Positions 26,129 through 30,988 of a stretch of DNA of 30,988 bases are shown here, piece after piece. How positions within the stretch are numbered: position 1 is the first letter of the stretch; the number at the start of each line of letters is the position of its first letter. The notes under the pieces are model-generated. The model searched no databases. It had not been told where the DNA came from and saw only the letters and a program-made list of their open reading frames with translations. A program made the translations under genes and the position numbers. The stretch comes from a virus. The stretch is taken from positions 1 through 30,988 of IMG/VR virus record IMGVR_UViG_3300022934_000101; one strand, 5' to 3'.

Positions 26129-27508
26129 ATGAGGAAAAACAAAACGAACGAATATCAATCTTTCTTGCAAGGTAAGAGACAGCTTGCCGGTGAGTTTGGA
26201 TTTGATCCCGTTTTTATGCCGGATTCAGCATTCCCCTTTCAAAGGGATTTAATTGAATGGGCTGTAATAAAAGGGAGAGCCGCACTATTTGCGGATTGCG
26301 GAATGGGCAAGACTCTTATGCAGCTTGCCTGGGCTAAAAATGTAGCCATTAAAACGGGAGGAAAAGTCTTAATATTGACTCCTCTCGCAGTATCACACCA
26401 GACGGTAGCCGAAGCTCATAAGTTTGGAATTGATGCCGAGCGAAGTAACGAGGGCGAAATAAATTCTCAAATCGTAGTTACAAATTACGAAAGACTCCAT
26501 CATTTCAATCCTGATGACTTTTGCGGGGTCGTATGCGACGAATCAAGCATCCTCAAGAATTTTGATGGGGCTATAAAATCATCCGTAACCGAATTTATGA
26601 GAACGCGAAAGTATCGGTTACTATGCACTGCTACGGCCGCTCCAAATGATTTTATTGAGTTGGGAACATCTAGCGAAGCACTAGGCCATCTGGGGTTCAT
26701 GGACATGATTGGACGTTTCTTTAAGAAGACGGATCAAACTTTCTCAAGAAAACAAGAAACCATGTCAGGCACATATAGACTTAAACCTCATGCGTCTAAA
26801 GACTTTTGGAGATGGGTTTGCTCGTGGGCTAGAGCGGTCAGAAAGCCGTCTGATTTAGGGTATGAAGATGGAAAGTTTAAGCTGCCAAAATTGATCACTC
26901 AACAGCATTTAGTAAAAGCAAAGACTATCAATCCTGAGTTTCTTTTTGAAATGCCAGCAGTTGGACTGGCGGAACAGCGTAACGAGCTTTCAAGAACAAT
27001 AAATGAACGTTGCGAAATGGTGGCAGAAATCGCCGGAAATTCTAATCGACCTTTTGTTTGCTGGGTTAATCGAAATGCCGAAGGCGACTTGATAGAAAAA
27101 CTTATTTCAGACTCAAAACAAGTAAGCGGAAGTGATTCCGATGAGTTTAAGGAATCCGCTTTTAATGAATTTGAAAAGGGTAATATCAGAGTATTAATAA
27201 CAAAGCCGACTATAGCTGGGTTTGGTCTGAATTGGCAGCACTGCCGCAATCAAACCTTTTTCCCCTCTCACAGTTTTGAGCAGTTTTACCAGGCCATACG
27301 TAGATCATGGAGATTTGGTCAAACCAAACCAGTTACTATCGACGTAATTTCAACTGAGGGTCAATCAAGGGTTTTGTCAAACTTGAAAAGAAAGTCAGAA
27401 TCAGCGGAAAGCATGTTTTCTGAACTTGTTTCAATGATGAATAATGAACTGAAAATTGAAAAAACAAACAAACACAAACAAAACGAACAAATACCATCAT
27501 GGCTATAA
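26129..27508 (+). CDS. SNF2-family (superfamily 2) DNA helicase/translocase
   Basis: A 459-residue SNF2-like ATPase. Motif I is ADCGMGKT (55-62), motif II DESS (137-140, in VCDESSILKNF), motif III CTATA (166-170), motif V TKPTIAGFGLNWQ (358-370) and motif VI QAIRRSWRFGQ (388-398). This compact phage type commonly sits beside a DNA methyltransferase, as here. It would act on double-stranded DNA. The ATG at 26129 is used; a GTG eight codons upstream is weaker. It overlaps the methyltransferase by 10 bp. Local A+T content is higher than in neighbours, and AGA and ATA codons are frequent, which hints at a different origin. Confidence 0.88.
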   Translation: MRKNKTNEYQSFLQGKRQLAGEFGFDPVFMPDSAFPFQRDLIEWAVIKGRAALFADCGMGKTLMQLAWAKNVAIKTGGKVLILTPLAVSHQTVAEAHKFGIDAERSNEGEINSQIVVTNYERLHHFNPDDFCGVVCDESSILKNFDGAIKSSVTEFMRTRKYRLLCTATAAPNDFIELGTSSEALGHLGFMDMIGRFFKKTDQTFSRKQETMSGTYRLKPHASKDFWRWVCSWARAVRKPSDLGYEDGKFKLPKLITQQHLVKAKTINPEFLFEMPAVGLAEQRNELSRTINERCEMVAEIAGNSNRPFVCWVNRNAEGDLIEKLISDSKQVSGSDSDEFKESAFNEFEKGNIRVLITKPTIAGFGLNWQHCRNQTFFPSHSFEQFYQAIRRSWRFGQTKPVTIDVISTEGQSRVLSNLKRKSESAESMFSELVSMMNNELKIEKTNKHKQNEQIPSWL

Positions 27509-28461
27509 TCGACCAAACTATAACAGAAAACTATGCCGCGTATAACGGCGATTGCTGCGAGGTTTTACCGGCCTTGCCTGATGAATCAATACATCTGAGC
27601 GTTTATTCTCCGCCGTTTTGCGGTCTTTATCAATATTCAAGCTCTGAGCGAGACATGAGCAATTGCCGGTCATATGATGAGTTTTTTGATCATTACGGTT
27701 TCCTAGTTAAAGAAATTGAAAGGGTTACTATTCCAGGCCGATGCACCGCAGTCCATTGCATGGACGTTCCTACTCCAGGCAAAAGCGGAGCAAACTTAGG
27801 AACCGGATTAAAAGACTTCCCTGGCGACATAATAAGACTTCATGAAAGTCACGGATGGACTTATGCGGCCCGATACCACGTATGGAAAGAGCCATTAGGA
27901 GTAAGAAATCGCACGATGGCAAAAGGTCTTGCTCACAAGCAAATCTGCGACGACTCAACTTTATGCGATGTTGCTTCCGCTGATTACTTGTTATTATTCC
28001 GCAAAAAAGGGGAAAACCCTATACCGGTTAATCATCCGACAGGGTTGCATGAATACGCTGGCAGTAGGTCGATACCTCATGAGTTGCATCAATGGAAAGG
28101 ATACGAAGGGGATCAGAAAAAAAACAGGTTCAGTCATTGGATTTGGCGTCAATACGCATCGGCCTTTTGGGATGATGTGAGAATTGATCGAGTTTTACCA
28201 TTTGAAGAAGCAAGAGACCCAGACGACGAAAGACATGTTCATCCTCTTCAACTAGACGTAATAGAGCGGACAATTGTTTTAAGAAGCAATCCCGGCGAAA
28301 CTATTTTGACGCCTTTTATGGGAGTTGGCTCCGAGGTTTACGGAGCTTTAATCAACGGAAGAAAAGGAGTAGGTATTGAATTGAAAGAAAGCTACTACCG
28401 GCAAGCCGTTGCAAACCTTTCCGCCGCGATTGAAAACGGAGTGGAAACAACTTTGCTATAA
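27499..28461 (+). CDS. DNA (N4-cytosine or N6-adenine) methyltransferase
   Basis: A 320-residue enzyme. Motif IV SPPF (37-40) is the catalytic S/T-P-P-F/Y/W of amino-methyltransferases. Motif I TPFMGVGSE (271-279), with the following VGIEL, forms the S-adenosyl-methionine site. The order (IV before I) is that of the beta class. SPPF with this layout can be N4C or N6A; the target site is unknown. It would protect phage DNA from host restriction and may work with the SNF2 helicase, which it overlaps by 10 bp and shares base composition with. No restriction endonuclease gene was seen beside it, so it is probably a solitary methylase. Confidence 0.9.
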   Translation: MAIIDQTITENYAAYNGDCCEVLPALPDESIHLSVYSPPFCGLYQYSSSERDMSNCRSYDEFFDHYGFLVKEIERVTIPGRCTAVHCMDVPTPGKSGANLGTGLKDFPGDIIRLHESHGWTYAARYHVWKEPLGVRNRTMAKGLAHKQICDDSTLCDVASADYLLLFRKKGENPIPVNHPTGLHEYAGSRSIPHELHQWKGYEGDQKKNRFSHWIWRQYASAFWDDVRIDRVLPFEEARDPDDERHVHPLQLDVIERTIVLRSNPGETILTPFMGVGSEVYGALINGRKGVGIELKESYYRQAVANLSAAIENGVETTLL

Positions 28462-29917: not shown

Positions 29918-30673
29918 ATGGCCGGGGATTGGATCAAAATCGAACATGCAACGCCGGATAAACCGGAAGTTGCCGTTATGGCCGAAATTCTTGGAATAGA
30001 TCCTGACGCCGTGGTTGGAAAGCTTGTCAGGTTGTGGATTTGGGCCGATCAACAAATTCAAAGCGAGGAAAATGTGTCACGCTCTTGTCACGCTGTTAGC
30101 GTGACAGAAACGTTTTTAAATCGTGTCACCTACTGCGACAACTTCGCTTTTGCGCTTAAAAAGGTCGGCTGGCTAGAGGGTGAAAGCGGAGCTTATTACT
30201 TTAAAAACTTCGCTTTCCACAACGGTTCTACGGCCAAAAAGCGCGGACAATCGGCGAAAAGGCAGCAAAAACGAAGAAAAAATGATGTCACGCAAGTGTC
30301 ACGCTCCGAGCGTGACAAAAACGTGACCAGAGAAGAGAAGAGTAATAAAGAGAGAGAAAGCGCGTGCGCGCGCGAGGTTTCGATTCCGACTTTGCAGGAA
30401 ATCACCGTTGCGGCTGATCGAATCGGAATGACCGAAAGCGAAGCGAAAAGGTTTTTCGAGCATTACGAGGGGAACAACCTATGGATTAACCAGCACGGAA
30501 GGTTGATCAAATGGCAAACGAAATTGAACACATGGAAAAACAACGAACGGAAATACGATGGGAGCAAAAACACTAACGGCCGCCCTGGAAGGCGAATTGA
30601 CAACAACGCCGGAACCTTCAATGAGGGAAAAACCGGGCAGTATGCCACAACCAAACTCGGCCGGGTCACCTGA
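29918..30673 (+). CDS. Replication initiator, lambda O-like, with embedded origin repeats
   Basis: A 251-residue protein. The N-terminus (GDWIKIEHATPDKPEVAVMAEILGIDPDAVVGKLVRLWIWADQQ, then FAFALKKVGWLEGESGAYYFKNFAFHNGSTAKKRGQ) is a winged-helix module widespread in phage replication initiators. A long basic, low-complexity linker follows (about 105-150), then a C-terminal helical part (TESEAKRFFEHYEGNNLWI...KWQTKLNTWKNNER) resembling the part that recruits the helicase loader. The linker and one N-terminal loop are encoded by DNA carrying the iteron clusters at 30075 and 30286, as in lambda, where the origin lies inside gene O. The next gene is a DnaC-like loader. No Shine-Dalgarno sequence precedes the ATG. 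Confidence 0.75.
   Translation: MAGDWIKIEHATPDKPEVAVMAEILGIDPDAVVGKLVRLWIWADQQIQSEENVSRSCHAVSVTETFLNRVTYCDNFAFALKKVGWLEGESGAYYFKNFAFHNGSTAKKRGQSAKRQQKRRKNDVTQVSRSERDKNVTREEKSNKERESACAREVSIPTLQEITVAADRIGMTESEAKRFFEHYEGNNLWINQHGRLIKWQTKLNTWKNNERKYDGSKNTNGRPGRRIDNNAGTFNEGKTGQYATTKLGRVT
30075..30106. repeat. Iteron cluster 1 (TGTCACGCT) within the replication gene
   Basis: Three exact copies of TGTCACGCT: direct at 30075 and 30086 (11 bp apart) and inverted at 30098 (12 bp further, 3-base gap, forming a 9-bp palindrome). Looser related sites follow at 30124 and 30109. Probable binding site for the encoded initiator. Confidence 0.72.
30286..30328. repeat. Iteron cluster 2, same geometry as cluster 1
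   Basis: TGTCACGCA at 30286, TGTCACGCT at 30297, inverted copy AGCGTGACA at 30309, and a degenerate inverted copy at 30320. Spacings (11, 12, 11) match cluster 1 exactly, with an offset of 211 bp. It falls in the low-complexity linker of the gene. Confidence 0.72.
30329..30374. other. Purine-rich tract and alternating G/C run beside the iterons
   Basis: Positions 30329-30360 are almost pure A/G on this strand with only two T residues. Positions 30360-30374 alternate purine and pyrimidine (GCGCGTGCGCGCGCG), able to adopt Z-DNA. Next to iterons, such a sequence could be the unwinding element of an origin. Confidence 0.45.
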
Positions 30674-30988
30674 CATTCCGGATTCGTGGCGAAAATGGTT
30701 TGAATTTAACACGAAAGACGACGTTCAACGGGAGGCCATGCTCGAGGCCGCCGTTGAGCTTGGAAGGGGCATTCGAGACGACAAAAAGCCGAAATGGTTG
30801 TCTTTGCTCGGCTCGTCCGGTGCTGGAAAGTCTCATATTGCCTCCAGATTGCGCCTTGTGGCACTTGAAAGGGTTGCGCGACACAATACAAGGGTGAAGG
30901 TTTTTGAACGCGGCAGAGAGCCATTCTGGGCGTCGTGGTATTCTTGGCCGAAGATCTCGGCCGGGTTCCGAGAAGGGGCCTATTCGGT
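30621..30988 (+). CDS. DnaC-like replicative helicase loader (3' end beyond the window)
   Basis: A reading frame open to the end of the window. It reads PDIPDSWRKWFEF near the start and then GSSGAGKSH, a Walker A motif, at about 30810-30836. The arrangement (short N-terminal domain, then a P-loop with a following helix) is that of DnaC/DnaI or phage-type helicase loaders, and it follows the O-like gene as P follows O in lambda. Three in-frame ATGs are possible (30558, 30621, 30642), overlapping the O-like gene by 116, 53 or 32 bp. I use 30621; none has a good Shine-Dalgarno sequence. Walker B and the sensor motifs lie outside the window. Confidence 0.72.
   Translation, partial: MREKPGSMPQPNSAGSPDIPDSWRKWFEFNTKDDVQREAMLEAAVELGRGIRDDKKPKWLSLLGSSGAGKSHIASRLRLVALERVARHNTRVKVFERGREPFWASWYSWPKISAGFREGAYS

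Follow-up and report, generated by a model that had tools for sequence, protein, structure and literature searches.

The DNA analysed here (the window) is a stretch of 30,988 nucleotides from an IMG/VR virus record. Near its right end lies the gene for a protein of 251 residues, of which residues 1-146, over the N-terminal domain, are matched by the PHROG 2509 profile 'replication initiation protein' (E 3.1e-47), while no Pfam match was obtained at E 0.1. The next gene encodes a P-loop protein with a weak match to DnaC loaders, and in several homologues a helicase or loader gene also comes after the initiator gene. Single-strand-binding and Sak4-like annealing proteins are encoded 4 to 6 kb upstream of the initiator gene, and a phage-encoded N6/N4 DNA methylase (PF01555, E 4e-14) is found at 27499-28461, upstream of the replication region. 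The features of the locus are listed below.

29918-30673, + strand: replication initiator gene, 251 aa, PHROG 2509 (phrog_2509, E 3.1e-47; open frame)
29936-30283, + strand: codons for residues 7-122, the predicted DNA-binding domain with a winged helix and a basic helix (AlphaFold2 models)
30075-30083, + strand: iteron 1a, exact TGTCACGCT
30086-30094, + strand: iteron 1b, exact TGTCACGCT, left half of dyad 1
30098-30106, - strand: iteron 1c, exact TGTCACGCT, right half of dyad 1
30263-30265, + strand: codon of Gln116, the residue covarying with the variable iteron base (column association, pair tests)
30286-30294, + strand: iteron 2a, TGTCACGCA, one mismatch to TGTCACGCT
30297-30305, + strand: iteron 2b, exact TGTCACGCT, left half of dyad 2
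30309-30317, - strand: iteron 2c, exact TGTCACGCT, right half of dyad 2
30321-30327, - strand: iteron 2d, degenerate, ACGTGAC for GCGTGAC, one mismatch in 7
30329-30342, + strand: purine tract AGAGAAGAGAAGAG, probable start of the opened region (the family's invariant element; unique in the record)
30343-30360, + strand: A-rich continuation TAATAAAGAGAGAGAAAG (sequence)
30360-30374, no strand assigned: alternating G/C run, role doubtful (the hairpin position in a quarter of homologues)
30558-30986, + strand: next gene, P-loop GSSGAGKS, weak DnaC-loader match, cut by the record end (sequence and profile match)

Both clusters are arranged in direct-direct-inverted order with steps of 11 then 12 bp, and they lie 211 bp apart. 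The original prediction had described this word and these identical steps, and both descriptions hold, save that the copy at 30286 is TGTCACGCA and carries one mismatch. It had also given each cluster a degenerate, inverted fourth copy; cluster 2 has one at 30321-30327, whereas none exists in cluster 1 within a limit of one mismatch in 7. Each cluster can be read as a dyad, TGTCACGCT-NNN-AGCGTGACA, with an extra copy 11 bp upstream, and the 39-bp blocks of the two clusters are 82% identical. The 31-kb record contains five exact copies of TGTCACGCT, all within the gene at 29918-30673; copies at many other places, which the prediction regarded as evidence against itself, were not encountered. 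At one mismatch or fewer, the word occurs 14 times in the window against 5.6 expected, a number reached by 0 of 100 shuffles. When codons were shuffled synonymously with the protein kept, the 8-mer GCGTGACA, observed 6 times, reached a maximum of 4 across 2000 shuffles (0/2000). The six iterons are translated in three frames, as VSR, CHA, SVT, DVT, VSR and ERD. This reading in three frames, together with the outcome of the codon shuffles, indicates that the repeats of the window are selected as DNA.

The AlphaFold2 model of the protein shows a winged helix with a long basic helix following the wing. The codons of cluster 1 correspond to a loop between helices 29-49 and 64-71 of the model, and those of cluster 2 to a low-complexity linker past the basic helix; the proposed placement in a variable loop and a linker is supported. 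Both segments have low model confidence scores, as expected of flexible parts. Relatives among solved structures were considered and set aside, the winged-helix matches being weak throughout.

PHROG 2509 homologues were gathered from phage records, IMG/VR and bacterial genomes, and the most repeated 7-mer of each of 81 non-redundant genes, identified de novo, was compared with 100 synonymous shuffles per gene. A gene-specific repeat, equalled in at most 1 of 100 shuffles, is present in 49 of the 81, and 45 of these 49 hold at least two exact copies in each of both clusters. Applied to 129 other genes, from the window and related loci, this test picks out 2, namely a spurious-looking open frame (L037) and a second initiator belonging to a different family (L015). 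The gene carries the word at 126 times the density of the flanks. Lambda O, which contains a known origin, has 4 copies and scores only 10/100, so the test is conservative. Most of the 81 homologues have a repeat word of their own (TGTAACGCT, TGTGACGCT, TTTGTCCCC, TGTAGACG and others); TGTAACGCT is the commonest among PHROG 2509 members and is found in most of them, while the window gene has TGTCACGCT. By clade, the iteron words are GCGTTAC, GCGTGAC, GCGTCAC, GGGGACA, CGTCTAC, TCCGACA and GCGGACA.

The layout is constant across the family, cluster 1 falling in a loop within the DNA-binding domain and cluster 2 about 200 bp further on, in the linker. Three members (L019, L048 and L050) carry cluster 1 in another protein loop; its presence is therefore no protein constraint, and what is conserved is having an upstream cluster rather than its position in the protein. 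Copies of the same orientation are stepped at 11/12, 22-24 and 33-35 bp, and convergent copies are spaced mainly at 12, 14 and 23-25 bp. This quantised spacing places the copies mostly on one face of the helix, as had been deduced from the 11-bp steps of the window. Part of the homologues have no clear repeat or tract; homologues lacking the repeats, which would have counted against the original prediction, were few and do not refute it. In one further homologue (L041:5001-5918), an HNH endonuclease domain replaces the linker, and iterons and purine tract are both absent. One contig that holds a PHROG 2509 member also encodes a second, unrelated, DnaD-like initiator (phrog_2514, L015:6537-7313) with embedded repeats: its six copies of CGAGCCA form three pairs, stepped at 11 nt, and a purine-rich tract comes after them. 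The embedded-repeat design thus extends beyond PHROG 2509.

The A/G tract predicted to follow the repeats is AGAGAAGAGAAGAG at 30329-30342. Iteron 2d ends one base ahead of it, in keeping with the family, in which the last copy of cluster 2 is usually 1-2 bases from the tract (GCGTNACC-AGAGAAGAGAAGAGAAGAG). Of the 81 genes, 70 contain this 14-mer, whereas synonymous shuffles would predict it in 1.1. All five codons are identical in 60 of the 60 genes whose tract encodes EKRRE, a count that is defined by the protein and not circular, whereas a count of Arg codons on a tract located by its purines is partly circular. Because of its 5-bp period, the same DNA serves different peptide phases (REEKRRE, PEKRREE). 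Across the family the repeats are maintained as DNA, with more conservation of codons than the protein requires, which the comparison of homologues suggested at the outset was meant to reveal. Past the tract, the A/T fraction peaks at 0.69 between +15 and +30 across 78 homologues.

The alternating G/C run is present at about 30360-30374, but the Z-DNA role first given to it is not supported: its folding in the window is no better than that of dinucleotide shuffles (z -0.31), and 4 of 135 homologues have a (CG)4+ run after the tract, the element conserved at this place being the purine tract itself. Z-DNA or a hairpin in the window was accordingly rejected. A hairpin after the tract exceeds synonymous shuffles (p 0.05 or less) in 20 of 79 homologues and may matter in part of the family. 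Strong hairpins of this kind, with stems of 7-11 bp, loops TAAA, TAAC, TTAC or TATC, and stem sequences that differ between phages, are seen in L018, L033, L065, L068, L074 and others. Paired C runs such as CCCCCCTAACCCCCC stand directly after the tract in L016, L042, L050, L073, L087 and others, and are answered by a G run in some homologues; at least five consecutive C follow the tract in 29 of 135. The ydaU gene of Escherichia coli K-12 has CCCCCCCTAAATCCCCCCCGGGGG at the matching position.

In the 107 genes having CGTNAC iterons, alignment columns were ranked by their association with the variable base N. Residue 58 heads the raw ranking but was rejected as a DNA-reading residue, since its codon lies inside cluster 1 and mirrors the spelling of the iteron. 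The second-ranked column is residue 116, which lies in the basic helix; only 1 of 114 genes has an iteron overlapping its codon. Where the iteron base is T, this residue is Val in 63 of 77 genes; where the base is G, 26 of 26 genes have Gln or Lys, and where it is C, 3 of 4 have Met. Among the closest pairs of genes with different iterons, residue 116 differs in 14 of 14, against 24% of equally distant pairs with the same iteron. When independent pairs were taken from a tree built without the tested columns, a quick tree on which all branches were counted and hence a less strict one, it was the strongest of about 100 columns (10.2 pairs in the same direction, 0 opposite and 0.8 with no difference); the test restricted to supported branches leaves 3 usable pairs, all agreeing or tied. 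The clearest case is the pair L007 and L012, whose N-terminal domains are 87% identical over the tree columns: RRVAKNR goes with TGTAACGCT in L007 and RRMAKNR with TGTGACGCT in L012. Other classes of iteron word have different basic-helix sequences. The covariation is strong, though not final, the column being chosen as the best of many on a quick tree. It implies that the encoded protein would itself be the reader of the iterons.

A natural comparison is provided by two ydaU alleles of Rac prophages, from K-12 (L388:4620-5477) and 442/2 (L053:1228-2016). They have their 3' part in common, with 92% DNA identity, but no similarity was found from the gene start until roughly where the repeats end. 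The N-terminal half encoded by K-12 is a DUF1376 domain with weak TGTTCAA repeats of its own (10 of 200 shuffles are equally good), and that of 442/2 is of PHROG 2509 with GCGTTAC iterons. The two alleles read as a natural exchange of a domain-plus-target cassette. The C-terminal modules vary across the family (DnaT, lambda-O-like, DnaD-like and others), and the DNA-binding domain and its target appear to move as a unit, the C-terminus separately. The iteron word shows 20 changes on the tree with the layout unchanged. We favour, with some reserve, the view that the domain and its two-part target form a swappable cassette, in which one basic-helix residue would set one iteron base. In Rac 442/2, a dyad (TGTAACGCTGCGAGCGTTACA, L053:1194-1214) also lies just before the ydaU start codon, beside the ribosome-binding region. 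This upstream dyad probably serves autoregulation, a function that some members may have in addition. The oriJ origin of Rac was rejected as a direct precedent, since the ydaU protein of K-12 MG1655 is a DUF1376 protein of another family; no placement of oriJ in ydaU was found in the literature searched.

Origins inside a replisome-organiser gene are represented by SPP1 gene 38 (oriL) and by lactococcal replisome organisers, in which protein families and site words differ from those of the window. The PHROG 2509 initiators themselves, among them those of TL-2011b and Rac 442/2 (ydaU), share the two-cluster layout, and the window gene is a member of this group. In lambda, the iterons lie in gene O and are followed by an A-rich purine tract and a palindrome, and the helicase-loader gene comes next (PMC7466680). 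Inspection of the lambda sequence shows iterons, tract and palindrome in an order like that of the window. The lambda origin is, however, one block of four 18-bp iterons, whereas the sites of the window form two clusters, the first lying within codons for the DNA-binding domain, and the (AGAGA)n tract of the PHROG 2509 family differs from that of lambda. The description of the protein as 'O-like' thus fits its function, but an hhalign comparison of its DNA-binding domain with lambda O shows no homology (probability 0.2%, E 0.36), nor was an O-type C-terminal domain found in the window protein; one homologue, L024, does have a lambda-O-type C-terminal domain (E 2e-20). In RepA_N plasmids of the pSK41 type, the origin is central in rep, in the linker codons between the winged-helix domain and the C-terminal module, and a natural swap of domain plus origin has been reported between the staphylococcal plasmids pSK41 and pPR9 (PMC5703833). 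The location in linker codons is shared with the window, and the swap is similar to that of Rac ydaU; the plasmids differ in having a single central block of Rep boxes instead of two clusters. No sequence similarity was found between the window initiator and pSK41-type RepA_N proteins, and the fold matches to RepA_N structures (4pql, 4pta, 5kbj and 4pt7; Z 4.5-5.1) are weak and in the range of a common arrangement.

Altogether, the repeats, their selection at the DNA level, the two-cluster layout, the invariant tract and the residue-base covariation make it highly probable that the locus is a bipartite, self-encoded, theta-type phage origin inside its own initiator gene. The original idea of an iteron array within a replication-initiator gene is upheld by the PHROG 2509 match and the selection on DNA. 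We propose a model in which the winged-helix domain, with its basic helix, would bind the TGTCACGCT dyads and the extra copies phased at 11 bp. On one DNA face, the iteron array probably forms a nucleoprotein complex adjacent to the purine tract and the A/T-rich stretch, where strand opening would take place. The C-terminal module and the DnaC-like neighbour would then load the helicase, and clusters 1 and 2 may cooperate. No binding or replication studies of the PHROG 2509 family were found in the literature searched. Mapping by GC skew, which had been suggested as a check, was uninformative: in one complete circular relative, cumulative skew rises throughout and makes no turn at the initiator gene.

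The repeats could instead be operators, through which the protein represses or pauses its own transcription while replication starts elsewhere. Autoregulatory sites alone would also be selected at the DNA level, an autogenous relation between protein and DNA predicts the same covariation, and the Rac 442/2 dyad stands directly before a start codon. Yet an iteron occurs within 80 nt upstream of the start in 2 of 49 homologues only, the clusters sit 150 to 400 nt into the coding sequence, an operator would have no evident use for the invariant tract adjoining the last copy, and the family and its neighbours are replication proteins; we consider this account improbable. It is very unlikely that the sites serve another phage DNA transaction, for example recombination or packaging, for which the initiator gene would be only the host. 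Packaging sites can occur in coding DNA, but the covariation seen here between the iteron base and a protein residue suggests that the binder is the encoded protein itself. Practically no credit is left to the repeats being chance or the by-product of low-complexity peptide (VT, SR and similar), a reading that could draw on the low-complexity linker at cluster 2 and on the frequent occurrence of the peptide 'SVT' at cluster 1 among family members. It is refuted by the shuffle and frame tests, since copies fall in three frames and on both strands and synonymous shuffles fail to match the repeats; moreover, relatives have different words at the same places, and in some cluster 1 lies elsewhere.

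Another form of origin would have clusters 1 and 2 bridged, with a 200-bp loop needed for opening or for handcuffing control, in line with the looping by the initiator that the original prediction proposed. The separation from dyad to dyad is confined to 184-237 bp in 53 of 54 homologues, which is compatible with looping, as is the location of the sites on one face; RepA_N initiators are also known to form tetramers (PMC5703833). However, gene length would also yield a confined distance, a wrapped, loop-free complex fits equally well, and the clusters show only weak helical phasing (R 0.27, kinship uncorrected), which was rejected as proof of looping. A looping origin is thus a tentative option.

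Lambda and a few plasmids, studied one at a time, have already provided examples of an origin inside an initiator gene. The limited literature searched yielded no conserved two-cluster form with half of it in the codons of a DNA-binding domain, no re-spelling of iterons in step with one residue, and no invariant (AGAGA)n tract. In PHROG 2509, a whole family has a conserved two-cluster origin, as we read it, whose target word has changed many times alongside the protein. Its natural pairs make the co-evolution of initiator and origin testable, and its layout gives a rule for finding origins in uncultured phages. Finally, a DNA-binding domain that moves together with its target would offer an explanation for the mosaic replication modules of phages.
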